A stretch of 64,000 nt of DNA from Cantharellus purpuraceus (Eukaryota > Basidiomycota > Agaricomycetes > Cantharellales > Hydnaceae): assembly GCA_025174535.1 (NCBI GenBank), contig JALBUN010000002.1:366605-430604 (forward strand), given 5' to 3'. The number at the start of each line of letters is the position of its first letter. Position 1 is the first letter of the stretch. This document shows, one piece after another, positions 5,908 through 33,370 of the stretch. Under the pieces are notes generated by a model, which saw only the letters and a list, made by a program, of their open reading frames with translations, had not been told where the DNA came from and ran no database searches. The translations under genes and the position numbers were made by a program.

Positions 5908-8900
5908 CTAAGCTTCATTGTGCCTATTCTGCGGCTCTGAAATGTGTCCAGTACCACGTGTTGGGTTCCTGCCAGCTGTCCAATCAAAGAGGACCTGTTT
6001 GGGAGGTTCTGTGAAGTTCTCAAAGCGTCTGAAGGGAAGAGCCGCATAGGTGGCTGCCGAAATACGCCTTGGGGCTTCAGGATTTTCCTGATGGAAGTCT
6101 GCAATGCGCCTTCTAGCCCCACTGGCATCCTTAGCTGGGATCCAGAGGTCGTCAGCAGCTCCATAGCCCTTCCAACGCACCAGGTATTCCAGTCTTCCTC
6201 GGAAAACTCTGCTGTCAAGGATCTTCTCAACTTCGTATTCCTGTACTCCATCTCGAATGACTGGAGGTGGTGGAGGAGATGACTGGCGTTCAGGGATGGG
6301 ATCCTTTTCATAAGGGCGGAGTAAGACAACAGAGAACACTGGATGAGTGCGGCCAAAGATTTGGGGAAGTCGTAGGCCATAGGCATTTCGTGAGACCACC
6401 TTATTAATCACATACGGTCCTAACCATTTGTGATCAAGTTTCTTGGTTGGACGGGTGGTGGTGATATTTTGTGCATTGAGCCAGACCTTGTCACCAAGTT
6501 TGTATACTGGGGCTGCTTGCCGATGGGCATCATAGAATCGTGCCATATCATCTGCTGCCTTTTCCAGGGCAGAGCGAGCCTCAGTGGTGGCTGTCTCCAT
6601 ACGCTCAGTGAATTCTTCCAGTGCTTCAAGTCGTGTCTCTCGGATTGGCTCTAGCCCAAGCCTTGGGTGTTGGCCTGTATCAAGCATGAAGGGGGTTGAT
6701 TGCGTGGAGGAGTGGATGCGGTTGTTGTATGTGAATTCTGCAAGAGGAACCCACTCAATCCAGTCATCCTGGCGCTGATTGACTAAAAGCCTCAAGTATT
6801 GTTCAATTTCTTGATTTACCCTTTCCGTCTGACCATCGGTTTGTGGATGATATGCTGTGGATGCTGCAACCTTGATCCCCAAAAGCTTATTGAGCTCGCG
6901 CATAAATTGAGAGACAAACTGGGTGCCACGGTCACTGATGATCTCCTCAGGAAGGCCATGGTGTTTCCACACATGGTCTCGGAAAAGTCGTGCAACTCCT
7001 ATGGAGTTGATGTCAGAGGTGGTAGGGATAACATGTGCTCGTTTGGAAAGACGGTCCACAACAACAAGGAGTGCATCATAGCCATGGCTGATGGGTAGTT
7101 CTACAATAAGGTCAACAGATATCACTTGCCACCTCCGATCTGGGACACGATTAGGCAGGAGTTTACCCATAGGAGGAGCAGGGAAAGTTTTTGTCCGATT
7201 GCAGAGGTCACATCCCTTGACATATTTGGCAATGTATCGTCCAAATCCAGGCCACCAGTAGCTGCGGGATACAAGTTCTGTTGTTCTCCAGCGACCAGGG
7301 TGACCTGTAATGTGAGTATCGTGGTGTGCCCTTACAATGTCATGGCGCAATTTTGGGTCAAGAGGGACATATACCTTGCCACGATAGAGGACAAGTCCAT
7401 TCTCCTCGGTCCATTCCTGTCCTCGTAAATTCCGAGAGGGACCAAGTTCCTTAAGAGCCTTTACAACCTTTTCATCTCTGTTGGTGCAGTTCCGCACACG
7501 TTCCAGGAATATGTCTCCTTCTCCTGTGATCATTTGAGCTTCTGGCCCTGGATAGGTGAATGTCGCATCGATGTGGAACAGCTCAGGGCCAAGAAGAACC
7601 TGGTTCTGGTTATCTTCCTCCCCCCGCTTATGATCTACACGTCGTGAGAGGGCATCAGGTTTGGCTGAATGTCGTCCAGGACGGTGGATCAGTTCAAAGT
7701 CAAAACTAGAAAGGTATAGTGACCAGCGAGCTTGTCGTCGATTGAGATTCTGAGCTGTACGGAAATATGTGAGGTTTTGATGATCGTTAAGGATTTCAAT
7801 CTTGTATTTGGTCCCTTCCAAGATGTGGTGCCATTCTTCTAGTACACGGATGACTGAGAGCAATTCCTTATCATGGATGGCATAGTTGCGCTCTGCATCT
7901 GAAAGGCTCTTGGATACAAAACCTACCGGCCTCCATTTCTCATCGTCACAGAGTTGAGATAGAACAGCACCTGTTGCATATGCTGAAGCATCTGTCTCTA
8001 GTCGAAAATGCTTGGTTTGATCTGGGAGGACAAGGATTGGAGTTGTCGTGACAAGCTGCTTGAGTTTATCAAAGGCTTCTTGTTCTGGGCCATCAGGTAT
8101 CCAAGACCACTGTGTATCTGCCTTTGTTAACCGATTCAGAGGCTTTGCGATATGTGAGAAGTCCTCAATGAAGCGACGATAGAAATTGATGAAACCCAGG
8201 AAGGATTTGACTTCTGTCACATTGCGTGGTGTGGGCCAGTCCCTGACTCCGGCCACCTTAACTGGGTCCATAGCTACCTGTCCCTGTGAGAGAATCAATC
8301 CAAGATAATCTACCTTCTGTTGCGAGAAAAGGCATTTCTCTGGTTTGAGGTACAGGTGGTTGGACCGAAGAATTTCAAGGACAGATTGCACTATCGTGTG
8401 GTGTTGTTCTAGGGATTCAGTGAAAATGAGGATGTCGTCCATGAACACTACCATAGTGCCATCGTCAATGAGCTCCTTGAAAATGCCATTCATCATCGTC
8501 TGAAAGGTTGCTGGGCTGTTTGTGAGACCAAAGAACATGACCAGGGGTTCAAATAGACCACGATTGGTTCGAAAGGCTGCCTTCCACTCATCGCCCTCTT
8601 TAATGCGCACATTGTTATATCCCCATCGGATGTCAAGCTTGGTAAAGTACTTGGCATTGGCTGCGGCAATTTTATTCATGATGTCTGGTACCAGGGGTAG
8701 TGGGTAGGCGTTCTTGATTGTGATATCATTCAGCTTGCGGTAGTCTTGCACAAAACGAAGATTACCGTCCTTCTTCTTCACAAAAAGACAGGGGATGCCA
8801 TGGGTGACTTGGAAGGGCGTATCACGATGATTCCGTAGGTTCTCCTCAAGGAATGCGTCCAACTCCTTCTGCTCATTTGGGGACATTGGATAGACCTTTG

Positions 8901-9804
8901 TGCTAAAGGGTTGCGCTCCTGGAGTGAGTTCAATAGCGTGGTCCCACAGTTTTCGAGGTGGAAGTTGGTCAAAGGACTCCTTTGCAAAAACATCCTTAAA
9001 TCCCAAGTACGCCTTTGGGACAATCTCCTCAAAGGTTTTGACTGGAGTAGATTCTGCAGCCTTCTGTGCGAGCTGTTGAGAAACTGTTGAACCAGCATAG
9101 ATATTCTCCAAGTCTTCTACAAAGATAACAAATGTTCGGTCTCCCTCGTATTGGGGTTTCCCGTGTGAGTTCTTGCCATTTGAAGGAGTTGTACCAAGTG
9201 AATGCTCTTTGTGTTCTGGTACTTCTCCACATGAATCAGGGCAGCGAGTCATCTGTACCTTTCCTGTACGCCAGTCTACCTCTGGGTTGTGCCTCACAAG
9301 CCAGGTGTGCCCAACAATTATGCCAAAGGTTCCCAGGCTTGTGACTGAAAATGTGGCACGTTCGGTATGGGTCCCATATGTGCAGATGAGATCGACTTCT
9401 TCCTTGATTGAACCTGCTTCATTTGGGGTCCCATCAATGTTATAAACAGGTATGGCACGTGGTAGAGGGCGTGTTCGAAGTTTCTCTGCTTTGACATATT
9501 CTGCATCAATGAACATTCCTGTAGCACCACTATCGAGGAGTGCATCCACGGCTAGAGGGTATCCAGTGTCTACCGAATGGATTTTCATGGGAATTCTTGT
9601 ACATCGACGGATGTCTGCAGATCGAAGGTAGAGACGAGGAGGGTCATCATGTTTAGCTGGAAGTTGAGAAGGGGTTTCAGGCATGGCTGTTTTGGTTTCA
9701 GTCTGATGGACAAGGGAGTGTGCGTGTAACATATCGCTTGTTAGCCCTACAGTACATGATTCAAGAACTGAAAACCGGTTTGTCAGGCAGGGCATGCTCT
9801 TCAC
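5908..9804 (-). CDS. pol: Pol polyprotein of Element 1 (PR-RT-RH-IN-chromodomain)
   Basis: A 1298-codon intact frame. The aspartic protease motif DSGATG is at residues 91-96. RT has the first catalytic Asp in KLDIRWGYN (about 391) and the FMDD box at 454-457. RNase H begins with TDAS near 604. The integrase zinc-binding HHCC region (HHDTHITGHPG... CDLCNRTK) is followed by the DDE core with SVDLIVELP, IISDRGTQF and TAYHPQTDGQTERVNQEIE. A chromodomain (EYEVEKILDSRVF, LVRWKGYG, DLWIPA) lies near the C terminus, which in this class is thought to direct integration to chromatin marks. The frame is -1 relative to gag and overlaps its stop. The first codon of the open stretch is GTG and the first in-frame ATG lies just after the gag TGA, so either -1 frameshifting or reinitiation could express it. 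Confidence 0.93.
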   Translation of the reverse strand: MKSMPCLTNRFSVLESCTVGLTSDMLHAHSLVHQTETKTAMPETPSQLPAKHDDPPRLYLRSADIRRCTRIPMKIHSVDTGYPLAVDALLDSGATGMFIDAEYVKAEKLRTRPLPRAIPVYNIDGTPNEAGSIKEEVDLICTYGTHTERATFSVTSLGTFGIIVGHTWLVRHNPEVDWRTGKVQMTRCPDSCGEVPEHKEHSLGTTPSNGKNSHGKPQYEGDRTFVIFVEDLENIYAGSTVSQQLAQKAAESTPVKTFEEIVPKAYLGFKDVFAKESFDQLPPRKLWDHAIELTPGAQPFSTKVYPMSPNEQKELDAFLEENLRNHRDTPFQVTHGIPCLFVKKKDGNLRFVQDYRKLNDITIKNAYPLPLVPDIMNKIAAANAKYFTKLDIRWGYNNVRIKEGDEWKAAFRTNRGLFEPLVMFFGLTNSPATFQTMMNGIFKELIDDGTMVVFMDDILIFTESLEQHHTIVQSVLEILRSNHLYLKPEKCLFSQQKVDYLGLILSQGQVAMDPVKVAGVRDWPTPRNVTEVKSFLGFINFYRRFIEDFSHIAKPLNRLTKADTQWSWIPDGPEQEAFDKLKQLVTTTPILVLPDQTKHFRLETDASAYATGAVLSQLCDDEKWRPVGFVSKSLSDAERNYAIHDKELLSVIRVLEEWHHILEGTKYKIEILNDHQNLTYFRTAQNLNRRQARWSLYLSSFDFELIHRPGRHSAKPDALSRRVDHKRGEEDNQNQVLLGPELFHIDATFTYPGPEAQMITGEGDIFLERVRNCTNRDEKVVKALKELGPSRNLRGQEWTEENGLVLYRGKVYVPLDPKLRHDIVRAHHDTHITGHPGRWRTTELVSRSYWWPGFGRYIAKYVKGCDLCNRTKTFPAPPMGKLLPNRVPDRRWQVISVDLIVELPISHGYDALLVVVDRLSKRAHVIPTTSDINSIGVARLFRDHVWKHHGLPEEIISDRGTQFVSQFMRELNKLLGIKVAASTAYHPQTDGQTERVNQEIEQYLRLLVNQRQDDWIEWVPLAEFTYNNRIHSSTQSTPFMLDTGQHPRLGLEPIRETRLEALEEFTERMETATTEARSALEKAADDMARFYDAHRQAAPVYKLGDKVWLNAQNITTTRPTKKLDHKWLGPYVINKVVSRNAYGLRLPQIFGRTHPVFSVVLLRPYEKDPIPERQSSPPPPPVIRDGVQEYEVEKILDSRVFRGRLEYLVRWKGYGAADDLWIPAKDASGARRRIADFHQENPEAPRRISAATYAALPFRRFENFTEPPKQVLFDWTAGRNPTRGTGHISEPQNRHNEA

Positions 9805-10943
9805 TGCTGACTGGCCTGAAAATCCTGCTTCTCCTCTTGCTTTGGAATTACTGCCTTCTGCGCTTCTTCCTTGGCCTTCAGTGCAGCTGCTACTGACTCT
9901 GATATCATGCCTGCAATTGCTGTTTGTGTGAGATCAGCTCGGATACGTTCCTTGCGTGGTTCAGGGCATGCTGGGGATATATGGCCACGCTTTCCACAGT
10001 TGTAGCATGTCCGAGTCTCAATGCGATGGCGGTTGGAGTCAATATCCATAGGTGCAGCACCATTAGAGGTTGCCAAGGTAGTTGGTACAGAGATGACCGG
10101 AGTGCTGTGAGGGCGGGATGGGGTAGAGCGGGCAGGAGTGAGGGAAGTCTGAGCACGTCTCACTTCTAGAAGACGACGGTGGTTGCGGTCAATTTGACAG
10201 GCCGCTTCCTTCCATGCCTTGAGATCGGACGGGAGGGATGGCTGTGCATGGATCTTGTCAAGAATCATTGCAGGGAGCCCTCGGGCATAGGCATCTTCCA
10301 GTGCTGCATCATTAAACCCAGTCCTTCCTGCTAGTATCTCAAACTGTGCCGTGTATTCATCCGCTGACATGCCAGGTGTCATCCTAAGATCGTGTAGCTT
10401 TGTTCGTGCTGTTCGAGAGCGGTCAGGGTCCCCAAAAGCGTTCTCCACTTGCTTAATGAATTCCTCCAAGGTGGAGAGTGGTGAGGTCCTGTCAATGACT
10501 GCCTGTGTCTCATTGTGCGCCCATACTTCAGCAGAACCTCCTGTCATAAAAGAGAGGGCATAGAGGATCTTGGTCCGCTCATCTGGGAAAGATGTAGGCT
10601 GGACTGCAATGGCAAGCCTGATAGAGCGAATGAAACCTTCCGTCTCTGCACGATCTCCATTGAATTTGGCTGGTTCGGCTGCCCTTATTGGGCGAACGGA
10701 TGACGATGTAGGAGAAGGTGTGGGAAATGAGGTGGTCTGAGAGATGGTCTGTGCTGCAGCAATGGCGGCAGCAGTGGCAGCATCTGCTAGGTTGTTCTGG
10801 ACATTGGCGAACTGGCTTTGGAGGTGCTGGTTCTGGAGTTGCAGCTGCTGGAGCTGCTGCGCCTGGGTGTTGAACAACGCTCTCAGAAAGCCACCACTTT
10901 CACCTAGAGTGTCCCAATAGGCTTCAGGGAGCTGATCGGTCAT
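9801..10943 (-). CDS. gag: Gag polyprotein of Element 1
   Basis: A 380-aa intact frame from ATG 10943. The N terminus holds a Gln-rich coiled-coil-like stretch (residues about 25-50). The middle is a retrotransposon Gag/capsid domain (PIRAAEPAKFNGDRAETEGF, TGGSAEVWAHNET, YTAQFEILAGRTGF). One CCHC zinc knuckle, CYNCGKRGHISPAC, lies near residue 320. The product would assemble the virus-like particle and bind element RNA. The leader between the 5' LTR (11012) and the ATG is short. gag ends in TGA at 9801-9803, overlapping the pol frame. Confidence 0.93.
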   Translation of the reverse strand: MTDQLPEAYWDTLGESGGFLRALFNTQAQQLQQLQLQNQHLQSQFANVQNNLADAATAAAIAAAQTISQTTSFPTPSPTSSSVRPIRAAEPAKFNGDRAETEGFIRSIRLAIAVQPTSFPDERTKILYALSFMTGGSAEVWAHNETQAVIDRTSPLSTLEEFIKQVENAFGDPDRSRTARTKLHDLRMTPGMSADEYTAQFEILAGRTGFNDAALEDAYARGLPAMILDKIHAQPSLPSDLKAWKEAACQIDRNHRRLLEVRRAQTSLTPARSTPSRPHSTPVISVPTTLATSNGAAPMDIDSNRHRIETRTCYNCGKRGHISPACPEPRKERIRADLTQTAIAGMISESVAAALKAKEEAQKAVIPKQEEKQDFQASQQ

Positions 10944-11380: not shown

Positions 11381-14300
11381 TCTGGGTGAGTAGTTTCATT
11401 GTTGAGAAGTATCCCAAGTTCTTGTGGTCCATTATGATGTCCACTGGATTGGAGGGGCCTTCGAGGTAGTGTCTCCATATCCGGGAGGCTTCATATATGG
11501 CAAGGAGCTCTTTGTCATGGATGTCATAATTCAGTTCAGGGGGTGTGAATGTACGCAAGTGAAAAGCAATCAGATGGACTTGTCCATCATCTGGAGAGAT
11601 GATGGACAGGATTGCGGCAAGTGCATAGTCAGAGGCATCGGTCTCTAATAGGATAGGAACATCTGGAACCCAATGAGTCAGTATCGGAGCAGAAGTAAAG
11701 GCCTTTTTCAAGGTCTCAAAGCTCTGTCTACATTCATCAGTGAAATTCCATTGGGTACCCTTCCTAGGAAGTCAGGTGAGCAGAACGGTGATATCAGAGT
11801 AGCCATAAATGAAGCGGGAGTAGAAGTTGGTGAACCCAAGGAAGGACTGTATGTCTTTGACTTTCCGTGGTTCTGGCCATTCTTGTATGGCTTTGATTTT
11901 GACATCGGACATTGTCAGTCCTGCAGGGGAGAGGATATAGCCTAGATACTCAACTGAGTCAGAGTGGAATTCACATTTGTCAGCATGGGCGAAGAGGCCA
12001 TGTTTTCAGAGATGTTGGAGTACCTCTCGGACATGTGTCTGATGCTCTTCTTCATTATCCAAATATACCAAAATGTCATCTAAGTAAATGAGGACGGTCA
12101 CATCAAGGAGGTCGGTGAAGGTATCATTCATGAACCTCTGGAACGTGGCTGGAGCATTGGTTAGTCCGAAGGGCATGACGCACCATTCAAAAGATCCATA
12201 TCAAGTGCAGAACATTGTTTTCCACTCATCGCCTTCTCAGATGCAGACTAGATGGTAGGCATGTCGGAGATCTATTTTGGAATAGATCTTAGCCTTTCAT
12301 GGGCTCTTGAGTAGGTCTGCAGTGTGGGGTATTGGGTATTGGTCTTTCTTGGTGATCTTGTTGAGTCCATGGAGGTCAACACATAGATGGAGTGATCCGT
12401 CCTTTTTACAGACAAATAGGACCGGAGCTCCATGGGGGGATAGGGGTGGGCAAATGAAGCCTGTGGCCAAGTTCTCATCTATGAATGTTTGGAGAGCCAG
12501 TAGCTCTTTTTGGGATAGTGAGTAGATAGGGCCAAGCAGAGGGGTGGAGTTGTCATTCAACTCAATCTTGAGATCATATGGTCAGTGTTCCGCTAGGGAG
12601 TTGGCTTTAGACTTGCTGAACATGTTGGTGAACTCATGATACTCCTTAGGAACCATAGATAGGTCTGGTGGAGTTGATCAGACAGAATGGACAGTGAGGA
12701 ACATCAGATCAGAGAGGTGAACCTGGAACGTGTGAGAGCCATCCAGTTTGCTTAGTCTGGCAAAGACCATAGCATCCACCATCAATATAGATGGAGGGGT
12801 AGGCAGAGTATCTATCGGAGCAGAGTCAGCAGAGGCAGAAGATAATTTCACACCTAAAGTTGCTGGTGACGTCAGGAATGACACAGCCTGTACTGGGGAA
12901 CAGAATGTGATATGGCCAAATGCCCAGTCAATCAATGGATTGTAGCGGGTGGGCCAATTATGTCCAAGAACCACAGAACAGCTGGAGTCAAGTGGAGTAA
13001 CATAGAATGTAAGGTTCTGGATTTCTCCAACAGAAAAACAGATAGACAGATCTATAGCTCGTGAAATAACAGCATTAGTAGTGCCATCAAATAATCAGAG
13101 CAATATCGGAGTTATGGTGTATGTATGGAGTTTATGTAAATCAGAAAAAGAGGAATCAAGGAAACAGTGAGTAGAACTGGAGTCAATTAATGCTTGGATA
13201 GTGGTATCGGGAATGGAGTCAGAGTGGGAAAGAGTGGATGTGTTCAGGTGGACCTTGTTTGTCATATGGGGAGTACCAACACAGCCCTCAGCCTGTACAG
13301 AGGCTAGAGGACTGCTTACTATTTTTTTGGGTCCATTGTGGCATTGGCAGCACAGCCCTTTGCCTTTGCTGCAGACAAGGTTGCCTTGTTGCAATCCTTG
13401 GCTTGGTGGCCAGGTTTTCCGCAGAACAGAGAGGTTGTTGTCCATGCGGTGCTGGTGTTCCTGCTGGGTAAGTTTTCCATCCTTCCCCAGCTTGGTGGAG
13501 AGGTCTGGAGTGCTCTTGTGAGCTCTGGAGTTATTGCTGGTTCCAGAGTTGTTCTGACTGGAACCAGAAGCAGCAGCGTTACCAGTGTTTGACTTCTGGC
13601 CTGAGTTGGTGGTGGTCTTCTTATTGGACCCCTTGTTGGACTTTAGGGTCTTGTCCAATGATTTGTCCAATTTGTTGTTAGCCAAATTTTTGTGGGAGAC
13701 CTCAGATTGATGTTCCCAATAATGGGCATCGATGGATTGGGCGAGCTTACAAAGGTTTACCAAAGTATCTGGCTTACCAACACATGATATCTCATCCTCA
13801 ATGCAGGATAGGAGACCAACATAAAATTGGCGTCAGAGTGCAGCGTTGCCCCATTGGACTTTTGGGGCTAGCTGCTGGAAACTCACAATGTATTTTGCAA
13901 TTTTGTGATTTTCCTTCATCCAAAGTTGATCGAGTTCATTCTTGGCATTGGCCTTGGGGTTGTAAGGACCAAAATTGGTCCAAAGTTCAGAGATGAAGTT
14001 GGAGTAGTCTTCTGACCATATTGGGTCATCACAGTTGTTCATGAGCGCTGGCTCAAAGTAGTCCAGTGTGGTGCCCTTGAGATAGGACATGGTGAAGGTG
14101 ACCTTTGCCTGATCAGATGTGAACACATCAGGGTGGTTGCGGAAATTCAACTGGCATTGCACCAAGAATGGCTGGAGCTTTCATGGATTGAGCCATCAAA
14201 TGGGTCGGGTTCCTGGACCTTGGTCTGGGACTTAGGGGCTTGTGGGGTACGGATGCTGCTGGCGAGCAGGGAGATGGCTTGCACCAGATTTGGGGAGGGC

Positions 14301-14466
14301 GGAGTATCGTCCTCTTCATTGATGGCTTCTATGTGGTCCGTTGGTTCTTCAACGACCTTGGGGATGGTGTCTATGCTGGGAGTGGGCACCTCGACGGTTC
14401 ATGTGTGTTTGGAATTGGCGGTGGATCATGGCATTGGTAGGAGTGAGTATAGCAGTTTGAATATAC
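11381..14466 (-). pseudogene. gag-pol 5' half of older family B element
   Basis: Minus-strand decayed gypsy sequence from gag to RNase H. Gag (about 14460-13330) includes PKVQWGNAAL and a Ser/Asn/Lys-rich tail. The protease region holds ALIDSSSTHCFLDSSFSDL near 13150-13220. RT fragments follow ([20 protein letters not shown] near 12510, [20 protein letters not shown] near 12440). RNase H includes ILLETDASDYALAAILSII near 11610. The frame is broken by several in-frame TGA codons and short shifts. Read together with 3300-4945 this is one element split by Element 1, so its 5' LTR is the copy at 14467-14981. Confidence 0.85.
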
Positions 14467-14981
14467 TGTTACGCACTAGGTCTGATTGGGGTCAGAGATT
14501 GGGTCGGAGTCGGAGCGGAAATCAGGGTGCGTCATGGGGGTTGGAGCGGACTTGGCTTCAGCTTATGTGCTGCGCCTTCACTAATACCAGTGTCCAAGAT
14601 TTCGGAGACAGAGTACAACTTAGATAGTTAGGATTGGACTTAGGAACTAGGCGTGATTCGATATTTGAACTGGGGATGAAGTCCCCAGTTGGGCAACTTA
14701 AATACATATTTGAAATCTAATAATAATTACTCTGGTGATGGGTCTCCAAGGCTGACAGCCTTACATGAGTATGTCTGAGTCTGACAGGGATGGATGTCCA
14801 GGTTCCTATGGTGATGCTGATGCATCAATCGCAACCGGACACGGATGGGTGAGATTTGGCGGTGACAATCAGACAGATAAATGGAGACGTGATGGTTTCC
14901 AAATGGAGTATAGATTTCATATGCATGGGGAACTGAGTGGATTGGACGGGGATCTGGGCATTAATGAATATAGTCATAACA
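14467..14981 (-). mobile_element. Family B LTR, 5' LTR of the decayed minus-strand element
   Basis: Plus-strand sequence starts tgttacgcactagg and ends gtcataaca, so the LTR read on the minus strand is TGTTATGAC...GTAACA (515 bp, TGTTA/TAACA termini). gag begins directly beyond its left edge. The strand opposite to LTR transcription carries an open frame (MSMSESDRDGCPGSYGDAD...) through most of its length, also present in several other copies. Confidence 0.88.
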
Positions 14982-16935: not shown

Positions 16936-17405
16936 GTTTTGGAACCTACAAAATTATGGTGTTAGGGAAAACTCTAAATCACCACAATTCCATGAATGAA
17001 CAGCTGAGAAGAATATCAAATCCTACTGCAGCACAACTCCAGAAATGATTTTAACATTTGTACTTTGGTTACAATCCATTGTAATGGTCAATGCAGACTA
17101 TATGCAGAAAGGTAATACATTTCTTAGCAGTAGGGAATGAATAAGACTTCCAGATTCTAGAGTTCACAGATGCTTAGGGGTCCAGACATTCAAAAAAGGG
17201 GAATGCACTTAGAGGCTAGAGGAAGTAGGTGGATGAATCTGACTGTCCAACCAGTGACACTCTGAAGTGGGTAACAGCAATGTGTGAAGTAGTCTAGCAA
17301 CTGCTTCACACGAGTTCAAGATCCTAATGCTCTGCTAAGGCAGTACACACTAGTAACTTAAACAAGAGCACTAATGGCAGGACTATTGACAGACAATCTC
17401 ACCCT
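16936..17405 (-). mobile_element. Inverted family A leader
   Basis: Reverse complement of 1563-2035, with shared blocks such as taatggcaggactattgaca and ctgcttcacacgagttcaag. It directly abuts the end of the chromodomain fragment. Confidence 0.6.
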
Positions 17406-17700
17406 GTAGATTTGTAGTCACATGAGGTAGATACTACACTCATTCCCAAAGCAGGACAATCACTACTTCAAGTGCAATCGAATACAGTTACACAACTGTA
17501 AGTGACCCTTGAACAATCAACAGTTACTGAGATATAGAGGATGACACTGTATGTCACTCTAGTCACACTGATGTGCAAATGATGGAGTAGAAATGGTTAT
17601 TTATTCAGAGGCAAAATGGCCTCCTTATATACTGTATCTACAGGAGCTGACTAATCCTTCTACCTATTAATAGTTATGAGTCATGGCAGGAGTTAGAGCA
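17406..17700 (-). mobile_element. Inverted partial family A LTR
   Basis: Matches the end of the LTR at about 1270-1562 in inverse orientation, including the TATA region (ctccttatatactgtatc here). Similarity fades at about 17690. Confidence 0.55.
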
Positions 17701-17759
17701 TGAGTCACCATTACTCAAATAACTCAGGCAATACATGGACTCTCCAGAATGGGGAGTTG

Positions 17760-18126
17760 CTTGAGTAGTCCATAAGGACAATGTCTCTGTGACTTTGAGC
17801 GCATACAAATGGTACATGACTTGATATAGGACTTAATGGAACCACAGAGTTTGGACCAGACATAGTCTTGCCTGACTAGATCTATAGTTTGGTTTTGTCC
17901 AAAGTGACCAGAGATCAGATGATCATGCTTGTTCTGGAGTACATGGAGTCAGAGATTGTTCACATCAGGGATGTAGATGTGGTTGTCAAGACAGAGTAAG
18001 CCTTCCAGGTCAATGGACCAGTGATTGATTGGTTTATTGAGATGATCAGAGATGGCTGGATCTGATTGGAGTGCAGATTGGATATCGGAGTGGAGTGTAT
18101 CAACATCCATAGTGATAGCTGCTCGG
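17760..18126 (-). pseudogene. Gypsy pol fragment (integrase zinc-binding region)
   Basis: Minus-strand sequence encoding AITMDVDTLHSDIQSALQSD, INHWSIDLEGLLCLDNHIYI and PDVNNL, then HDHLISG-like remains. It aligns with family B sequence at 28660-28830 (IMDIDQLRSNIRSSL, WSLDPKGHL). It belongs to the same diverged family as 15901-16935 or a close one. Confidence 0.7.
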
Positions 18127-18819
18127 ATGTAAGTACCCAAGGTACTTACTTACTATAACATATAAGTACAATTAATATATGCAGTATTCCCTTAAGGAAT
18201 GCTGCCCTCTTGGTAGATATATGCACCCATAGTGCATATGTATAGTTATTATGTAAGCCAGTGGACCCAAGTACACGTGTGGGTCCACATATAGTAGACA
18301 GAACTTAGTAACAACCACACTGTACAACACATCGCCCAACCAATACACTTGGTTGAGTTCTGTGCAATGGTGTGAACTAAGACACCCATTAACACTTTTT
18401 TGAACTTCCAAAGGAAGAATCAATTGATTCTTCCTCATTATTAAAGTTTTCCAGTCAATACTAGAAAACCAGCTGTTGCTGGTGTACAGATGTATACCAA
18501 CCCCCCCAGTCGCTCATATAAGTGAGCAACTAGTAGACTAACTTAGTTAGCCTACAAAGATAGAAGAAAGAAAGGAGTCATCATAATGATGACTTGCAGT
18601 AGAGTGAGTCATGCTGGCAGTGCACAGGACATCATAAATGATGAATGGCAGCATGTAGCCAGCAGCAGAAGCTCCCAGGAAGGGGAGCTAGACCCTAGAG
18701 AAGTCACAGGGACTTCTCATAAGGAAGACTCTAGAAGAGAGTCACTGCAATCGTGAGACCACACAGATGATCACACAATAGATTGTCTGTCAAACAAGAA
18801 CCCTTCATCGAGTGGTTCT
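18127..18819 (+). other. Leader of the hairpin-rich element
   Basis: No coding frame is evident. It contains inverted repeats at 18131-18147, 18219-18239, 18261-18288 and 18413-18434, and more up to 18760 (for example gtcatca/tgatgac near 18577, gagaagtc/gacttctc near 18694). It may include an LTR, but without a second copy the boundaries cannot be fixed. Confidence 0.5.
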
Positions 18820-21480
18820 TTGATTAGAGAAGAAAGGAGGAGACAGTCATCCACTGTCTCCAATGTTCCTAAAGGAAAGGAACATGCTCAATATATGAGC
18901 ACAAGTAGAAGTAGCAATACTTCTACTAGGGAATTGTGCAGCATGGAGTGGCGTGAAACCCACAGGTCAATCGCAAGATTGACTGAACAACTCATGCATA
19001 ATCAACATGGGATGGAGAGCATTAGCGAAGCTAGTGCTCAGGCAGCTAAGATGGCTGCTGAAGCAGGGCATGCTGCCACTACTATGAGGCAGCAAATAGC
19101 AGAGCTAGGAATGATGTTAAAATCGCTCCAAGAGAACTCTGAGCGATGCAAGTCACATTGCTGAAGATCAGATTCTCGACAAGAATATGAATCCAGAGAG
19201 TCTGGACCTCCTCAGGGTGAGAGGGTCCAACCAAATGATCAGTTAGACAGAGGAAATGAAATTTTCCCAATGGAGGGAATTAGAGACCCAGTAATCCCAG
19301 TGAGGCAAGGATTACTGATCCAGATTGAAGAGGAAACTCCTCAATCTATGACAAAGGAGCTCAATCAAGAGATTGAGCTATGGAAACAACAAGAAGTTGA
19401 GGTTTCTCATAAACATAGATTAGCCCTCAAATGGAAGGCTAAACATGCAGAGTAGGAGCTTGGCCAGCTGTTTAGAGAGCAGCAGCCCCAGCAAGAGCTC
19501 AATGTGGCTGTTGATTTGAATCGACAGTTGCAACATGCGCTGAACAGTTATCAGCGCATACAAGCAGTGGGCCTCTCAGGAGACACCCACCATGAGCAAC
19601 GAGATACCCAATGGGTACCTCAAGAAGATGTTTCCCATAATAGGGAACAATCAGCACCATTGACCCTAGAAGGTCAAGGCATACTGCATCAATTGGACAC
19701 AATTGATCCTATTGATGGCATTACTCGCATGGTGCAAGTAGCCATAGTTGATTACAGAGACACAGACACAGAGAAGTCTGTACTTGCCAAGGCAGGCATT
19801 AAAGTATCACCTCCTGAGCAATACGCAGGAGGTGCAGATTTCAAAGAGTTTGAGATCTTTGTAGCAGGTATGCTACGATGGCTGAAGATGAATAATCTCC
19901 TAAGGCCATCAAGTACAAAGTTTCAGCTATTGTACTTAGGCACTCACCTTAAAGGTGAGGCCCAGGAATGGTTCTACAGGAATGTAGAACACTACAACAG
20001 GGCAGTCCAAGACTGGACCCTGGAAACTGCAATCCAAGGATTGCACTGTAGATTCCTACACACCCTGATGCATCACCATGTGTCAAATAAATTTGACTCT
20101 GTAATACAGGGTCAAAGGACCGTTCACAAATTAGTGAATGACCTAGATAAGTATGCAGGCCACATGATAATGCCACTGGACACATACACATACAGGAAGA
20201 GGTTTGTAACCGCAATGGGTGAACCTCTGAGACAAGAAGTCCTCAAAAAGGGCTTCAATGCTGAGTTTAGCAGTATCAAGCAGTTGTATGAAACTGCTCA
20301 AATGATAGAGGAAGCAACATGATACCACCATGGTATGCGATGCCCAGAGAATGCAACTAACATGTCCTCCTCAACCCATAGACCAGTAGTCAATAGAACT
20401 ACTGGTATGATGAATATGGGGAGTCAACCCACACCCCAAGGACATGTGTATACAGCTCCCAATACACACTCACAACAAATGAGTGTGTCAAGGTTGGAAC
20501 CCCATAATGGAAGCTCCAGGTCCAATTCCAATAATTACCTTTTCAAGGGTAATGTTACACACTGGTCCAATTGGGGGTCAGAGGTTCAGTTGGAGGTTTG
20601 ATCGGAGTCAGAGAAGGAATCAGGGTGCATTGTGGGGGTTGGAACGGACTTGGCTTCAGCTTATGTGCTGCACCCTCACTAATACCGGTGTCTGAGATTT
20701 TGGAGATGGAGTGCGACTTTGATAGTTAGGATCAGACTAAGAAACTAGGTGTGATTCGATATTTGAACTGGGAATGAAGTCCCCAGTTGGGCAACTTAAA
20801 TACATGTTTGAAATCTAATAATAATTACTCCAGTGATGGGTCTCCAAGGCCAATGGCCTTACATGAGTATGTCCGAGTCCAACAGGGACAGATGTCCGGG
20901 TTCCTATGGTGATGCTGATGCATCAATCGGAACCAGAGATGGATGGGTGAGGTTTGGCAGTGACAATTGGACAGATAAATGGAGATGTGATGGTTTCCAA
21001 ATGGAGTATAGATTTCATATGCATGGGGATCTGAGTGGATCAGACAGGGATCTGGGTGTTAATGAATATAGTTATAACAGGTAATTATCAATCAAAGCTA
21101 CCAGCACACATGAGTGGTGATCGATTGAACAACATTACTAGTAACGTTGTGTGCTACAAATGTGGCCAGACAGGTCACATGTGACCCAACTGCCCCAAAC
21201 TAAAGGGCAATGTAAGGTTGGCTGTGGTCCAAAAAGACATGTTCTCACACATAGTGGAGGACAATGTAGACAGATTCTCCCCAATAGAGGGAGAACATGA
21301 AGAAGCAATGGATGATCCCAAGGACCATCTAGATGGGAAAATACCAGCTATAGAAGTGGCTGATAAATGGGATGAAGAGGTTGCCCCATACAAATGGGAC
21401 GACCAAGATGATGCCCCTGAAAAGGAGGCTATGCCAATGTATCGCTCTAATGCAATATGAATTTGACCCAATGATCAAAT
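18820..21480 (+). pseudogene. gag: gag of the hairpin-rich element (broken)
   Basis: One reading frame can be followed from about 18820 with in-frame stops at 19162-19164 (TGA), 19453-19455 (TAG) and 20320-20322 (TGA), and past the inserted LTR (20553-21079) to about 21460. The first part is a charged, coiled-coil-like region (REERRRQSSTV..., QIAELGMMLKSLQENSE). The longest uninterrupted piece, 19504-20322, carries a retrotransposon capsid domain with FKEFEIFVAGMLRWLKMNNL, LKGEAQEWFYRNVEHY and YTYRKRFVTAMGEPLRQEVL. After the LTR, a CCHC knuckle follows (CYKCGQTGHM, stop, PNCPKL, near 21150). Most stops are TGA where relatives would plausibly have CGA, as expected from CpG decay. Confidence 0.75.
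20553..21079 (-). mobile_element. Solo family B LTR with target duplication ggtaa
   Basis: Complete 527-bp LTR (plus strand tgttacacactgg...gttataaca) flanked by the direct repeat ggtaa at 20548-20552 and 21080-21084. It interrupts the gag frame of the hairpin-rich element. A solo LTR with duplication is the product of LTR-LTR recombination after insertion, so this insertion is younger than the host element. Confidence 0.93.
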
Positions 21481-22200
21481 TCCACCAAAACACACCTATG
21501 CAGTGTGTTTCTGTAGTGCAACAAGATTCCCGAGAAGCAGGGAATCACAACAGCTGCATATAGCTGCTGTCAGTGTCGACAGATTGGCCAAACCTATGTA
21601 TAATCATAGGAGCCAACAGAAGTCAACAGCACAACCAGATAGACCATGCATAGACAATAAAACAATCTCTGGGTATTGGGAGATTGGTGGCTCACTGTCT
21701 ATTAGACAGTGGGAGTGAGGGGATAATGATATCCCCTGAATTTACACAAGTGACAGGTAGGAAAACCTTTGTGCTAGAGCAACCCATTGCACTGCAATTA
21801 GCGTGCATTGGGAGCAGGAGTACCAATTATGGTACTCACACTACCATAAAATTTGGTAGTCAGGACATTGAAGAATATTTCAATGTCACCAATGTTGAGT
21901 ATTACAATGTAATATTTGGTACCCCATTCCTATGAAAGCTAGGAATATGCCTGGACTTTAATGGCCCAGGCTGAATCATGATGGGAACTGAAGAAGTCCC
22001 CACCAATGAAGAGCATAATGCCAATACTCTTTGTACCCCATCATGGGGTATAAACTCAATGCGAAGAAGGAGTATTGGCATGAATAAATGACACCAAGGG
22101 GGTAACTCTAAACATGAGCTACCCACAACACAGTCCTTCCTAAAAGAAGGACTAGACTTGGTAAAGGACCCCCCAATGAAGGATTCAAATAAGAAATAGC
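21481..22200 (+). pseudogene. Protease region of the hairpin-rich element
   Basis: Plus-strand frame fragments encode an aspartic protease active site (HCLLDSGSEGIMISPEFTQV near 21690-21750) and its downstream strand (TIKFGSQDIEEYFNVTNVEY, FGTPFL near 21850-21935). Frames are broken at both ends. This stretch shows the densest inverted repeats, five consecutive stems between 21818 and 21946. Confidence 0.65.
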
Positions 22201-22984
22201 TTCATCTCATGAAGAATCAACCGATTACATGGCTGATCAGATCCCTCAGTTGAGGGACCAATGGAAAGAAAAGTATGCTGACCTATTTGGCAGCATACCC
22301 TTAGAACTTCCCCCATTTAGGGAAGTTAACCACAAGATTAATCTCATGGATCCTGACAAGTGAATATGAGAGTGGAGATGACCTAGGTTGTACCACGAAG
22401 TCCAACATTTTCTTGGACTAGTGCAGTATCTGGCTCACTATATGCCAGACATAACTGCATACACAACCCCTTTATTGGGTTGTGCTCATAATTATTGTCC
22501 ATTCTTATGGACACCACTGCTGGAGAAATGCTTTGAAAGCATCAAGCTCCTAGTGTGTAGGGCTCCAATATTGAAGCCCATCGATGCCCCAATACTATTT
22601 GGGTTATTACTGATGGCTCCAAAACTGGAGTTGGAGCCATCTATGGACAAGGAAAAGATTGGCAGACCTGTTGGCCTGCCAGATTCCTATCCAAGAAATT
22701 TAGTGCTGCACAACAGCACTATAAGACCCACAAGCACAAGACTATAGCTGTGCTCGAAGCCCTAATGAGATGGGAAGATAAGCTACTAGGATGAAAGTTT
22801 ATCCTAGTAACTGACCACAAGGGTCTTGAATACTTCAAGACCCAAAAGAACCTGTCTCCTAGACAGATTAGGTGGTGGGAGTTCTTATCTTGTTTCATCT
22901 GTATACCCTGCTCAGCATTCCTGAAGGGGAGGAGGCTGGTTGAAATAATAATCAACCATGCACACCAAGTAATTGGCCATTTTG
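22201..22984 (+). pseudogene. RT/RNase H remnant of the hairpin-rich element
   Basis: Most of the RT fingers and palm are missing. What remains starts near 22205 (ADQIPQLRDQWKEKYADLFG), jumps to a thumb/connection piece (FLGLVQYLAHYMPDITAYTT, LLEKCFESIKLLVCRAPILK) and RNase H-like sequence (TDHKGLEYFKTQKNLSPRQI near 22810-22870). No YxDD box is visible, so an internal deletion has removed the RT core. Stops and shifts are frequent. Confidence 0.6.
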
Positions 22985-23919
22985 GTTGACTAAAAACCAC
23001 AAATTACATTTGATGGCTGTACTGGTGGTCAAGCATGACCACTGATGTCGAATCATTCTGCACTTTGTGCGTGAAGTGCCAAATGAATAAAGACAGTATG
23101 AAGAAACCCACAGGGCTTCTTCATAGCTTGCCAGTACTGGAGTGGCCCTGGCAATTGATAGGTATGGACTTTATGGGTCCATTACCAAGATCAAATGACT
23201 ATGACTACCTACTGGTAGTCATAGATCGCTTCACATCGCAGGTACATATAATACCTACAAACATGCATGTAACAGCGAAAGGAGTAGCATGGCTATTCCT
23301 TAAAGAAGTTGTACACCTTCACGGTGTACCAGACTCGATCATGTCTGATTGAGATTTGAAATTCACATCTATCTTTTGGCATGAACTACAGTGGATGATG
23401 GGAGTGAAACTCCTCATGTCCACAGCACCCCATCCACAAATGAATGGAGTGACGGAACGAGCGAATCGTTCCATTGGCCAAATACTTTGTACTGTTATAC
23501 AAAGTGATCAGAAGGATTGGGCACCCAAGTGTCCAATGGTGGAGTTTGTGCTAAACTCCAACATAAGCTCAACAACGGGGTTTACTCCGTTTGAGCTTAA
23601 CCATGGGTATATGCCTAGAATAGGCATGCCCATTAACAATGACACCAAGTTCAAGGGTGTCAAACAATTTGCACAGCAGGCTCAAATGAACCTGCTAGCA
23701 GCACATGATGTGATTATAGAAAGTTGCATCATTCAGACATTTCATGCCAATAAGAAACATTGGGAAGGTCCAACCTTCCAGAAAGGTGACAAAGTCTATC
23801 TCTCAACAAAAAACTTGACTCTACCTAAGGGTAGAACCAGCAAACTAGTGCCCAGGTATATTGGGCCCTATAAAATAATCAAAGCCCATAATAAAGCTTT
23901 GATGGTGACACTGGAACTG
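22985..23919 (+). pseudogene. Integrase of the hairpin-rich element
   Basis: Plus-strand integrase with the zinc-binding Cys pair (CTLCVKCQMNKDS near 23060), the first catalytic Asp in GMDFMGPLPRSNDYDYLLVV, a stop codon in the second catalytic motif (IMSD, TGA, DLKFTS near 23345), and TAPHPQMNGVTERANRSIGQ carrying the Glu. The C-terminal domain ends in PRYIGPYKIIKA just before the family B LTR. It lacks a chromodomain in the preserved part. Confidence 0.75.
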
Positions 23920-24327
23920 TGTTATGACTATATTCATTAATGTCCAGATCCCTGTCCGATCCACTCAGATCCCCACACATATGAAATCTATACTCCATTT
24001 GGAAACCGCCATCTCCATCTACCTGTCCAATTGTCACCACCGATTCCACCCATCCATCTCCAGTTCCAATTGATGCATCAGCATCACCATAGGAACCCAG
24101 ACATCTGTCCCCATCGGACTTGGACATACTCATGTAAGGTTGTCGGCCTTGGAGACCCATCACCGGAGTCATTATTATTAGATTTCAAAATATGTATTTA
24201 AGTTGCCTGACTGGGGACTTCATTCCCCAGTGCAAATATCGAATCACGCCTAGTTCCTAAGTCCAATCCTAACTCTCTAAGTTGTACTCCATCTCCAAAA
24301 TCTCAGACACTGGTATTAGTGAGGGCA
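23920..24327 (+). mobile_element. Truncated family B LTR
   Basis: Starts TGTTATGACTATATTC directly after the integrase remnant and runs through the family B LTR until cactggtattagtgagggca, where repeat D takes over. About 130 bp of its 3' end are missing. Confidence 0.85.
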
Positions 24328-25747
24328 CTGACGAGCCAGGACGCATCGAGGACGCATATCGAACCACTCTGACAGTCCAACTCTGCCAGCATCTTTTCAT
24401 ATCAACTTTTAAATAGTGCCGCAACTCCCTCTCCACCTCAGTCTCTAATTCTAGCCATCGATCGTCACTCATGTTTCATCACCATCGATCATTATCAGCC
24501 TTCTATTCACACCAATCCTTTCATCATCATTCACATGGCTTCCCATTCTATTCCCCTCTCCAACATCGCTTCTAATAATACGTCACACTGGTCTCTGGAC
24601 ACAGAGGACTATCAAAAATATGCTGAGCTCCACGGGCATGTTAAGCCACCTCCACATGTCAAAATACTTCCAAAACTCTTTCAACATCCAAGATCCCCAC
24701 CATGTCTCTCTTATGCCATTGGCAATCCCATATTCTTTCACAATTCCGTTGAACCATATACATTCCTCGACATTTCACCTCTATATTGTAACACAGATGG
24801 AAGAGTCAAACGTGAGGTAGAATTTCAGTCACCATTGCCGACCTATCCTCCCACTTCAATCCGACTCAGGTTACATCGTGACAGGCAAAGGGACCGAATA
24901 CTCTTGGAACGGGATACCATATGGAGACGGATCACTAAGACAATAAGGAGTATTTGTTGTGGATGCTGACTGAAGTCCTCATGTGACTCAGGGTCAATTT
25001 ACCTTCGGAGCCGTAGGGAAGATGGTATTGGTGGACATTTTTATTGTTCTTTTATATGACTCACCCCTGTTTCATCTTTTAATTCATTCATACACGACTT
25101 ACTCATCCTTGTTCTATTTTTGGTTCTTTTATTACTCATCACCCCCTATTCTTACAAAGATTACCCCTATCTGTCGTTTCATTTCTCCATGATTACCCCC
25201 TTTAGTAGTTCAACTTCACACGCTTCGTCAGCTGGCTTGATCAGCATTTCTTGCATCATATTGCATCATTTGCTCCTCATATTGTGTTGTTGTGCCCTGG
25301 GGATTTGTATATAAAAGGGCGCTAGTTTTCACCTTTGGAATGAATCAACAAGTTTTCAGCCAATGCTCTAAAGTCAAAGTCCACGCTCTAAGTCTATGCT
25401 CTACGCTCTACATCACAATCCATCATCTCTACACTGAGGTAAAACACCTTGGTTCAATGATCAGATTTCCCTCCACCACCGAGAGGTTGCTTCTCTTGAA
25501 ACCAGCTTTTGTGTACCTCCCAACCGGGCTCCGCATTGTCATCCAGTCACAGAGCACGATCAGCCATCAGGACCGACCTTTAGCTCCCATCCCCATCCAA
25601 CCACAGAGCACTATCCCACTTCCCTGTTACTTATCCCTCACCCTGATTGATCTTTGGAGTGCTGAACAACTGCGTTACACACTGTCTGTTTGCTAGGACT
25701 GTTGCATGCAGGCTTATAGGATCTATTCCTTAAGCGAACCGACACCG
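24328..25747 (+). repeat. Repeat D, copy 1 (1.4 kb)
   Basis: Shares its full length with 31223-32635: both start CTGACGAGCCAGGACGC and end GCGAACCGACACCG. It contains a small ORF near the start, then T/C-rich sequence, a TATA-like box (TATATAAAAGG at 25308-25318) and a long 3' part. The layout resembles a long LTR, or the 3' end of an element comprising a last ORF plus LTR. Left flank is family B LTR and right flank is accessory gene, so this copy lies at a recombination junction. Confidence 0.75.
24535..24969 (+). CDS. Small ORF of repeat D, copy 1 (144 aa), unknown function
   Basis: Starts at ATG (MASHSIPLSNIASNNTSHW) and ends at TGA 24967-24969 with a Cys-containing tail (TIRSICCGC). Copy 2 at 31430-31858 is nearly identical, the main difference being a two-residue deletion (HNSVEPYTF against HNSPYTF). 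That length change is a multiple of three, so the frame has been kept. It shares the W-S-x-D, PPP-x-V, IG-x-P-x-F and PY-x-F motifs with the third ORF of Element 1. No known domain is recognised. Confidence 0.55.
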   Translation: MASHSIPLSNIASNNTSHWSLDTEDYQKYAELHGHVKPPPHVKILPKLFQHPRSPPCLSYAIGNPIFFHNSVEPYTFLDISPLYCNTDGRVKREVEFQSPLPTYPPTSIRLRLHRDRQRDRILLERDTIWRRITKTIRSICCGC

Positions 25748-27037
25748 CCCCTCCTTGTACCACTAGTCAGGGCTTGACGCTCCGACTCCAGGGATCGAAC
25801 TTCCCATTGACCCTACACCCTCCTTTCCGACCCCAACAATGATCACAGGACCAAAGGCGGCGAGTTGGGCCGGTAGGCCACACACACTCCACGCCTGCAT
25901 CACAACACAAGTCACAAATTACACCAGCCTGCCGAATGGCTCCGTTGGAGCCAGAGCCTTGGGTGGTCCACTCCTTCTCAACATGGCCTCCAAGTGTTCC
26001 CTCTCCTCCTCCTTGTCCTGCTGTTCAGCTGCCGCCTTCTCCATCTCATGCTTGCGAAGCTGGATTGCTGACATAGCGACATGCAGCTCCTTCTTACGGG
26101 TTGCCAACACGCAACTCTCTGCCTTGCACCATATGACCCTCTGATCCACCTCCCGCTTCTCCATATCAGCACTCAGGTGCGCCTTCAATGAAAAGATCGT
26201 GACCTTGAGGTTCTTCTTGGTGGTAGCAGCATAAAGCTCTGCTCAATTTTGAGCCTCGACCGCTACCCAAGCCATCTCCTCGTAACAATTCGAGGTTGGA
26301 TCCAGCTCTGCATCCGTCCCCACATCCACGCCTGCCTTGGGCTCTGCATTGGCTTTGAGCTCCATATTGGCATTGGGATCTGCCTCCACCTCCACCCTCT
26401 CCACCTCGCCGCTTCATCTTCCTCAGCCACCCCCAACCCAAATAATGGCCGTGACCGCGGACGTAACAACAAGTCCACCATAGGGACAGTTGTCGGACGA
26501 GTTGTCTCCATCCATGTAATGGAGATGGTGGCGACCTCAGGGGTCCCTGCCCGTATTGGCACACTTGGACTTCCTGGGTGGCTCACTTGGCTTTCGCTTC
26601 CTCCTCTTTCCATCTCCATTCCATCTCTGCCTCCTCCTTCTGTCTTCCTCCTTCCGTCTCCGTTCCACCTCCTCTTCCTCCTTCTGTCTCTGTTCCGCCT
26701 CCTCCTCCTCCTTCCGTCTCCATTCCACCTCCTCCTCCTCCTTCCATCTCCATTCCGCCTCCTCCTCCTCCTTCCATCTCCGTTCCTCCTCCTCCTCCTC
26801 CTTCCGTCTCCATTCCACCTCCTCCTCCTCTTTCTGTCGGGCCAAGAGCAACTGCTCAAGCTCAGCCACGCTCATGCTTGCCAAAGGGTTTGACATTGCT
26901 GAGGATAACACCTCAATCATGCCCCTCCTTTTATATGTCTCCAGATCCCCAGTATAACTCCGACTGCACCCAACCGTCTCACCTACTCAATCCACGGACA
27001 TGAGGCCTCAAAGGCTCAGCCTTAAATGGAGAGATAC
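25748..27037 (-). pseudogene. Accessory gene of family B, copy truncated at its 3' end
   Basis: Minus-strand gene remnant. The N terminus (from about 26920) reads MIEVLSSAMSNPLASMSVAE and continues into a long Glu/Arg/Lys/Trp-rich coiled-coil repeat. Towards 25900 it carries EKREVDQRVIWCKAE, MEKAAAEQQDKEEEREHLEA and the six-cysteine cluster CDLCCDAGVEC...CDHCWG..GGC (spacing C-x2-C-x6-C-x12-C-x2-C-x6-C, 25806-25918). The C-terminal part is lost where repeat D begins. The reading frame shifts more than once, so this copy is decayed. The family B LTR starts at 27038, just upstream of the gene, so the gene points away from the LTR into the element. Confidence 0.6.
26600..26850. repeat. Degenerate CCTCC/TTCC repeat in the accessory gene
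   Basis: Imperfect 18-30 bp units of the type cctcctcctcctccttcc(a/g)tctcc. On the minus strand they encode EEEE-x-E-W/R-R-x-K units of the coiled coil. All six frames stay open here because of the low complexity. Confidence 0.7.
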
Positions 27038-27576
27038 TGTTATGACTATATTCATTAACGCCCAGATCCCCATCCAATCCACTCAGATCCCCATGCATAT
27101 GAAATCTATACTCCATTTGGAAACCATCATGTCTCCCTCTACCTGTCCGATTGTCACTGCTGATTCCGCCCATCCGTCTCTGGTTCCAATTGATGCATCA
27201 GCATCACCATAGGAACCTGGACATCCATCCCCGTCAGACTTGGACATATTCATGTAAGGCTGTTGGCCTCAGAGACCCATCACTGGAGTAATTATTATTA
27301 GATTTCAAATATGTATTTAAGTTGCCCAACTGGGGACTTCATTCCCCAGTTCAAATATTGAATCACGCCTAGTTCCTAAGTCCAATCCTAACTCTCTAAG
27401 TCATACTCTGTCTCTGAAATCTCAGACACCGGTATTAGTGAGGGTGCAGCACATAAGCTGAAGCCAAGTCCGTTCTGACCCCCATGACGTAGTCGACTCC
27501 TTCTCCAACTCCAACCAAACCTCCAACCAAACCTCTGACCCAATCTCCAACCCCCAATCGGACCTAGTGCATAACA
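27038..27576 (+). mobile_element. Family B LTR (539 bp)
   Basis: Complete LTR from tgttatgactatattc to gtgcataaca. It lies between the accessory gene copy on its left and a family B pol on its right. It is therefore both the 3' LTR of the left element and the 5' LTR of the right one, as in a tandem array. Confidence 0.9.
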
Positions 27577-32630: not shown

Positions 32631-33127
32631 CACCGTGGCTACCCAAGCCATCTCCTTGTAACAATTTGAGGTCAGATCCAGCTCTGCATCCATCCCAACA
32701 TCCATGCCCTTGGGCTCTGCATTTGCGTTGAGCTCCATATTGGCATCAGGAACCGCCTCCACTTCCACCCTCTCCACCTCCGCCGCACCCACCGCAAATA
32801 ACAGCCGTGACTGCAGGCATAACGGCGAGTCCACCATAGGGCAGTCGTTGGACAGATTGATTCTGTCTGTGTAATCGAGATGATGGCAACCTCAGGGGTC
32901 CATGCCCGTACTGGCACACTCGGACTCCCCAAGTGACTGGTTGCCCCTGCCCCGGTCACCTCCTCCTCTACCTCCATGGCGGCTGCTAGCTCGTGCACCT
33001 GCTCTTCCACTTCCTTCAGTCTTGCAGCCTCCATTGCAGCCGCAAGTTCCTTGACTATGCAGGCTCGCTCTGCTTTCGCTTCCTCCTCCTTCCATCTCCA
33101 CTCCTCCTCCTCCTTCCATCTCCGCTC

Positions 33128-33370
33128 TGCCTCCTCCTTCCATCTCCGCTCTGCCTCCTCCTTCCATCTCCGCTCTGCCTCCTCCTTCCATCTCCGCTCT
33201 GCCTCCTCCTTCCATCTCCGTTCTGCCTCCTCCTTCCATCTCCGTTCTGCCTCCTCCTTCCATCTCCGTTCTGCCTCCTCCTTCCATCTCCGCTCTGCCT
33301 CCTCCTTCCATCTCCGCTCTGCCTCCTCCTTCCATCTCCGCTCTGCCTCCTCCTTCCATCTCTGTTCTGC
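33128..33370. repeat. 21-bp tandem repeat in the accessory gene
   Basis: About ten to eleven units of cctccttccatctccgctctg with C/T variants at two positions. On the minus strand each unit encodes one heptad-like block (EEAERRW-K), so the repeat lengthens the coiled coil in steps of seven residues without shifting the frame. Confidence 0.9.

Follow-up and report, generated by a model that had tools for sequence, protein, structure and literature searches.

The window, a stretch of 64,000 nucleotides from Cantharellus purpuraceus (contig JALBUN010000002.1, positions 366,605 to 430,604), carries at positions 18128–23919 what is, to judge from its sequence, a decayed copy of a long terminal repeat (LTR) retrotransposon of the Ty3/gypsy type, whose LTR and coding regions alike form a chain of short, perfect inverted repeats. 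The parts of this copy are predicted as follows:

18128..18394, + strand: 5′ LTR, TG...CA, about 267 bp, delimited by a homology edge and by LTR copies lacking the other parts, which end at about position 267
18395..18573, + strand: leader, holding a 12-bp loopless palindrome at 18412–18435
18574..20553, + strand: gag coding region, hairpin chain, four in-frame stops
20554..21079, no strand assigned: foreign repeat inserted in the element and not part of it, with near-chance hairpin density
21080..22366, + strand: zinc knuckle (by eye), protease region and start of the reverse transcriptase (RT), frameshifted and stopped in the window copy; hairpin chain
22367..22900, + strand: RNase H region, with PF17917 RT_RNaseH at 22594–22791 (47.9 bits, above cut-off)
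22901..23919, + strand: integrase region, hairpin chain, its 3′ end lost to the foreign repeat at 23919

Structure and coding content of the element

The start of the LTR is marked by a homology edge that falls at 18128, or at most one base away, in most of the 20 copies fetched, and by a TG common to the copies; the CA end was identified by eye, and LTR copies without the remaining element stop at about position 267. Five hairpins (stem of at least 6 bp, loop of 3–12 nt) lie within these 267 nt. A purine-rich tract, GGGGAGGG or GGGAGGG, is found immediately 5′ of the LTR in the copies L032, L031 (second LTR) and L025. A preliminary description of this DNA had placed the element at 18127–23919: the chain that it reported there stands, whereas the start moves to 18128, the segment 20554–21079 is foreign, and 23919 is a cut made by a second copy of the foreign repeat and not the 3′ end of the element. 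Inverse copies of this repeat occur at 23920–24325 and 27038–27484; it is LTR-like and present in both orientations.

In gag, an open stretch of 288 residues (19456–20319) matches PF19259 Ty3_capsid at 25.6 bits, below the cut-off of 29.1, and several gag relatives from metagenomes bear PF19259 or PF03732. PF17917 precedes the integrase region, giving the order RNase H then integrase, as in Ty3/gypsy pol. The best match of the integrase piece among solved structures is Ty3 Gag-Pol (7q5b, E 3.1e-13); over 23062–23916 the rve model reaches 18.9 bits, below its cut-off, and SH3_Tf2-1 31.8 bits, above it. A chromodomain following the integrase is weakly matched (PF00385 Chromo, 14.2 bits for a cut-off of 25.1, E 0.041). 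The window copy has 16 in-frame stops over six coding segments and lacks most of the RT: the core is missing just upstream of RNase H, where the copies L010, L014 and L024 have extra sequence. RT-like residues are visible by eye in L024; the sole RT piece scanned, L021:1176–1400, gave no match to an RT model. Copies such as L024 run on past the integrase with the weak chromodomain, a hairpin-rich tail and a third open reading frame (ORF3), which is open over 276 residues at L048:2736–3563, occurs also in L043, L047 and L021, and is built of hairpins as well. ORF3 found no relative at E 0.001 among 1696 candidates of the protein collection and only chance-level matches in Pfam.

Perfect hairpins far exceed chance

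Perfect inverted repeats with loops of at most 12 nt were counted, without overlap, over 18127–23919 and in 30 dinucleotide shuffles of it. There are 96 with a stem of at least 6 bp (shuffle mean 18.2, standard deviation 3.9, maximum 26), 69 with at least 7 bp (mean 4.9, maximum 11) and 40 with at least 8 bp (mean 1.2, maximum 3). The density claimed in the preliminary description also survives comparison with 100 codon-preserving (synonymous) shuffles of the 4740 coding nucleotides in six segments, which hold 85, 61, 36 and 16 stems of at least 6, 7, 8 and 9 bp, against 16.9, 5.9, 1.95 and 0.56 in the shuffles. All 20 stems listed in that description are present as perfect inverted repeats, six of them longer by one or two pairs; its spacing of one every 20–35 bases is too close, the measured value being about one hairpin per 40 bases. 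Indeed, 130 helices, with isolated mismatches allowed and all aligned copies considered, span 3024 of 5266 nt (57%). Enrichment is confined to short loops: 92 hairpins have loops of 0–12 nt, against 13.3 in shuffles (about sevenfold), and 12 have loops of 13–30 nt, against 17.7. An Rfam scan of 18100–23950 returned no match at the gathering score.

The stems are accommodated without visible cost to the proteins, and the earlier statement that codon choice has been bent agrees with the codon shuffles above, with a phase bias and with the gag residues. The phase that pairs third codon positions with each other leaves most pairs fixed by the protein, and it is the rarest, with 18 of the 85 stems against 35 and 32 in the two other phases (chi-square p 0.055, one-sided p 0.0099). 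Residues of gag that depart from the majority across relatives make up 12 of 59 in stem codons and 19 of 81 elsewhere (p 0.69); because stem codons show no excess of such departures, the stems arise mostly through silent codon choice.

The chain is a property of the element and not of the locus

The two other gypsy elements of the window are at chance for stems of at least 6 bp (12 against 13.5 by shuffling at 5908–10943, and 12 against 10.6 at 34677–39198), as is the region 43000–64000 (57 against 53.4). In 1-kb steps along the window, four or more stems of at least 7 bp are found solely within 18001–24000. Absence of the chain from the neighbouring gypsy elements, as first described, is thus upheld, with the reservation that a sister family elsewhere in the genome has a weak excess. 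Both flanks of the element are near chance, and the foreign repeat at 20554–21079 is slightly above it, with 2 stems of at least 7 bp against 0.54. Since this insert, which the host replicates along with the element, is no chain, the process acted before integration; and since insert and flanks are near chance, host replication of the locus is not its cause. The chain belongs to the element.

Copies were sought in the 40.15-Mb assembly (50 contigs) with positions 18300–18900 as query, and 40 of 384 candidate places were scored, giving long matches of 91–100% identity besides short palindromic self-hits. Aligned pieces of 400 nt or more come from 29 loci; 28 of these carry 5.9–16.8 stems of at least 7 bp per kb, for about 0.8 per kb in shuffles of the window element; the exception is a 716-nt piece, L047, with 2.8. 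The tail and ORF3 region of L021 holds 37 such stems within 2.9 kb.

Hairpin-dense stretches also lie outside the alignment (L010:1–600, L012:5001–5400, L025:6201–6600, L026:2401–3000 and others), some of them being RT, tail or ORF3. One locus, L009 (G000:C12:935200–944200), repeats window positions 17000–25000, flanks included, at 99.9% identity over 8 kb, and probably represents either the alternative haplotype or a segmental duplication of recent date.

Decay and maintenance of stems among copies

Variation was compared over 33 loci, leaving out matches below 84% identity or shorter than 80 bases, L009, L023 (a near-copy of L021) and loci whose cut points coincide with those of others (L001–L008, L029, L030, L035, L037, L038, L045 and L046); L049 and L050 are of another family and were tested apart. 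Transitions account for 4455 of the 4916 substitutions relative to the window copy, and 93–97% of the columns that are CpG in any copy are variable. The copies show near-total loss of CpG to TpG or CpA, as in methylated repeats, and their in-frame stops are mostly TGA.

Private transversions, which represent decay following insertion, are equally frequent in stems (3.18 per 1000 cells) and between hairpins (3.24). Of the 2234 stem columns, 5 have a transversion shared by at least two copies, compared with 32 of the 3007 remaining columns (p 1.8e-4); restricted to coding columns, the counts are 4 of 2034 and 21 of 2761 (p 0.007), and this latter test is the safer one, as the columns 18386–18391 with shared transversions at the end of the LTR may be misaligned flank. 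Shared insertions and deletions follow the same pattern, touching 2 of the 2234 stem columns, 11 of the 2233 columns between hairpins and 3 of the 774 loop columns. The avoidance of stems by shared transversions, and not by private ones, suggests that stems were maintained during the active life of the element. These tests define helices over all copies, which removes the bias of a rejected comparison (stem divergence of 6.2% versus 8.9% and 10.2%), where stems had been picked as perfect in the window copy.

Covariation of both arms, proposed at the outset as a check on same-genome copies, fails as a test: the copies are too alike, and the 63 stem cells with a double change all lie at CG/TA or GC/AT exchange sites, that is, CpG decay on both arms. 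The tail of L024, which is noncoding, offers one small instance in which both arms differ between paralogous hairpins: those at 8585, 8661, 8705 and 8742 are neighbours, have related arms and exchange A-T and G-C at one stem position with the arms still matching.

Folding is strong and equal on both strands

Averaged over 17 stretches of 300 nt, the folding z-score of the element is −6.60 for the sense and −6.84 for the antisense strand, the sense strand being the more stable in 5 of the 17. The comparison with shuffles suggested in the preliminary description therefore comes out well beyond chance, yet equally so on the antisense strand. For the structured RNA phage MS2, 11 stretches give −5.24 and −3.84, with sense more stable in 9.

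Selection on a sense RNA is expected to tolerate G·U pairs, but not A·C pairs, and to leave antisense folding weaker. Inside the 130 helices, the conserved imperfect pairs comprise 15 A·C, 5 G·T and 12 others, and the next pair outward is A·C in 23 and G·T in 11 cases. As base composition by itself predicts 57% A·C, the lean towards A·C is not significant (p 0.12 interior, 0.055 outward), and G·T is not in excess. Shared one-sided transitions outside CpG create 32 G·T and 33 A·C pairs in stems. The corresponding G·T and A·C counts in MS2 are 6 and 3 in the interior, 7 and 5 next outward, and 3 and 2 next inward, the expected lean on few counts. Neither a favoured wobble nor a weaker antisense strand, the marks of RNA-strand-specific structure, was thus seen in the element, and its strand symmetry and lack of a G·U excess weaken the case for selection on the sense RNA alone. 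Perfect Watson-Crick arms, short loops and strand symmetry are what correction of hairpins by template switching leads one to expect.

Sister family and metagenome relatives

The two stretches of the sister family, L049 and L050, share 43–46% integrase identity with the element. L049 has 15 stems of at least 6 bp against 7.13 in 100 codon shuffles (maximum 14), a weak excess; L050 has 7 against 3.84, and is at chance for stems of at least 7 bp (1 against 1.30). The same small hairpin covers the integrase motif VHxxP in L049 (1340–1354), in L050 (784–798) and in the window (about 23240–23256), with bases that differ between the families.

Metagenomes yielded 91 proteins related to gag, which are not mutually independent and were compared at the protein level. 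Across them, the stems realised in the element stay encodable in 196 of 588 cases against 101.4 expected, a value reached in 14 of 2000 resamplings. The seven closest, hand-picked relatives give 36 of 43 against 13.7 (reached in none of 2000), and the remaining 84 a weaker signal (50 of 2000). The null used here is stricter than a first one (301 of 981 fully pairable against 159.7), which it replaced; a control on the sister integrase showed no signal under the first null (4 of 24 against 2.8) and is uninformative under the stricter (0 of 8 against 0.0). Among the seven relatives (36 encodable, 13 not), no reciprocal case was found in which both arms had to change jointly. Searches of viral contig and genome contig collections yielded no confirmed relative. 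The protein comparisons hint that the chain may predate the present genome.

Other features of the window

Gene-like open reading frames elsewhere in the window recall what we take to be topoisomerase I, NF-YA and Beclin/Atg6. Tandem repeats with units of 24 and 30 bases occupy 33007–33492 and 26575–26889; they are open in several frames, with EERRWK-like charged repeats on the minus strand. An open stretch of 203 residues at 14016–14627 resembles the far 3′ end of L024 and belongs to a repeat common to several loci.

Discussion

The element resembles the chromodomain branch of Ty3/gypsy (Metaviridae) in its TG...CA LTR, a gag stretch that matches the Ty3 capsid below the cut-off, the position of RNase H before the integrase, an integrase closest to that of Ty3 among solved structures and, with a weak match, its chromodomain-like tail. 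It differs from that branch in having more than half of its length in short hairpins and an orphan third reading frame after pol. As first surmised, no described element like it was found in full-text searches over the open part of PubMed Central. With MS2 it shares a coding sequence that is folded throughout, far beyond shuffles; MS2, however, reaches 0.8 per kb in perfect stems of 8 bp or longer, against 6.9 in the element, and folds better on the RNA strand, where the element folds equally on both. Local secondary structure is also known from LTR elements of maize, as microRNA-like structures, but these are scattered regions resembling microRNA precursors, and not an unbroken chain of perfect 6–12 bp stems (PMC10760457).

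Template switching that both creates and repairs perfect hairpins is documented for DNA replication (PMC8794818). The likeness lies in perfect, short-loop hairpins made by copying one arm from the other; as described there, the process is sporadic and affects RNA genes and host DNA, whereas here it would pervade a single mobile element, with reverse transcription as the suspected occasion.

We tentatively propose, giving it a little less than an even chance, that a lineage of the Ty3/gypsy type became, in its LTR as in its coding sequence, a chain of perfect hairpins through fold-back template switching. With slightly more reserve, we suggest that the whole genome of the element, genes included, was silently rewritten in this way by frequent fold-back during reverse transcription, so that its sequence would record the copying mechanism of a polymerase. 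During copying of single-stranded complementary DNA (cDNA), or of its template, the 3′ end under extension would fold back over about 15–30 nt, pair with an imperfect nearby complement, copy that arm and return, each event perfecting one quasi-palindrome. Over many cycles, with removal of the events that damage proteins, nearly all silently convertible sites would become hairpins; after integration the process would end and the copy would decay through CpG transitions. The agent would be the reverse transcriptase, and the events fold-back template switches. This proposal is based on the perfect arms, the short loops, the strand symmetry, the indifference to sequence and the stop at integration, and the loop limit of about 12 nt is as expected for a local fold-back; the scarcity of shared transversions in stems also speaks for it. 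Of the two causes offered in the preliminary description, template switching, as a tentative cause, fits better with the strand-symmetric folding, the lack of a G·U excess, the short loops and the confinement to the element, and selection for a structured RNA is less favoured.

Several observations weigh against fold-back copying as the cause. Other Ty3/gypsy elements are also reverse transcribed and have no chain, so that something special to this lineage is needed. Shared transitions show no deficit in stems, where they number 15.2 per 100 columns, the values between hairpins and in loops being 13.4 and 13.1. Variable sites outside CpG are equally frequent in stems (21.0%) and in the rest (21.4% and 21.6%); recurrent decay may hide any deficit of shared transitions. 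Multi-base events copying one arm were not seen between copies, although no dedicated search was made for them. Among four-base loops, the stable tetraloop type makes up 5 of 30 on the sense but 1 of 30 on the antisense strand, a faint hint of RNA selection, and the G·T to A·C ratio in MS2, 16:10 over three classes, is too small for a strong contrast with the element. Finally, pairs are skewed towards a 5′ A or C (544 against 450, p 0.003). Where fold-back correction of quasi-palindromes passes through G-U intermediates, G-C and U-A pairs have been derived to be over-represented (PMC8794818); the A-T and C-G skew found here is opposite and misfits the simplest form of the process.

Chance, base composition or codon usage is a negligible explanation: nothing speaks for it beyond the A-rich composition (33% A), and both the dinucleotide and codon shuffles and the chance-level neighbours refute it. 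Whatever its cause, the chain could be the extreme of a trait graded across a wider clade, with sister families showing it mildly, and the excess at stems of at least 6 bp in L049 and L050 points that way, as does the encodability of stems in the seven hand-picked metagenome relatives out of 91; L050, however, is at chance for longer stems, reciprocal changes are absent from those seven, and the signal is weaker in the 84 other, non-independent relatives, so that we consider such a gradient rather unlikely.

Selection may instead have acted on a genome-long structured sense RNA that resists pairing with small RNAs or aids packaging, roles that have been proposed for certain viruses with ordered RNA genomes. 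The sense strand folds very strongly, shared transversions are scarce in stems, the hairpins are carried by silent codon choice, five of the four-base loops are stable tetraloops, and the stems are short enough to keep clear of long double strand, all of which would agree with such selection. It is set back by the equal antisense folding, by the lack of a G·U excess in conserved imperfect pairs or shared variants (32 against 33), and by the far fewer perfect stems of structured MS2 (3 of at least 8 bp in 3569 nt), and appears improbable, though RNA selection with strict Watson-Crick stems is possible. Were hairpins selected on both strands, for example in transcripts of either sense or in single-stranded cDNA, with Watson-Crick pairs alone counting, then strand-symmetric folding, the absent wobble preference and the maintenance of stems against transversions would follow, and the non-significant A·C lean would be G·T read on the minus strand. 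Stems, however, extend across LTR, gag, pol, tail and ORF3 alike, as if agnostic of sequence, shared transitions are not depleted in them, and we know of no function that requires hairpins on both strands; we judge selection of this kind more doubtful still. The explanations may also act together.

If fold-back copying is the cause, the element would preserve, in nature, the traces of template switching across an entire coding genome, and would mean that pervasive structure can be imposed by a mutational process alone, silent codons sparing the proteins. If selection is, it has produced perfect stems far denser than those of MS2 and strand-symmetric, and to our knowledge no known function explains hairpins so dense and so symmetric. 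In either case, neither strong folding scores nor inverted repeats amount on their own to evidence of a functional RNA. The family offers a testable system: one genome holds many copies, insertion draws a sharp on/off boundary, and metagenomes contain relatives.

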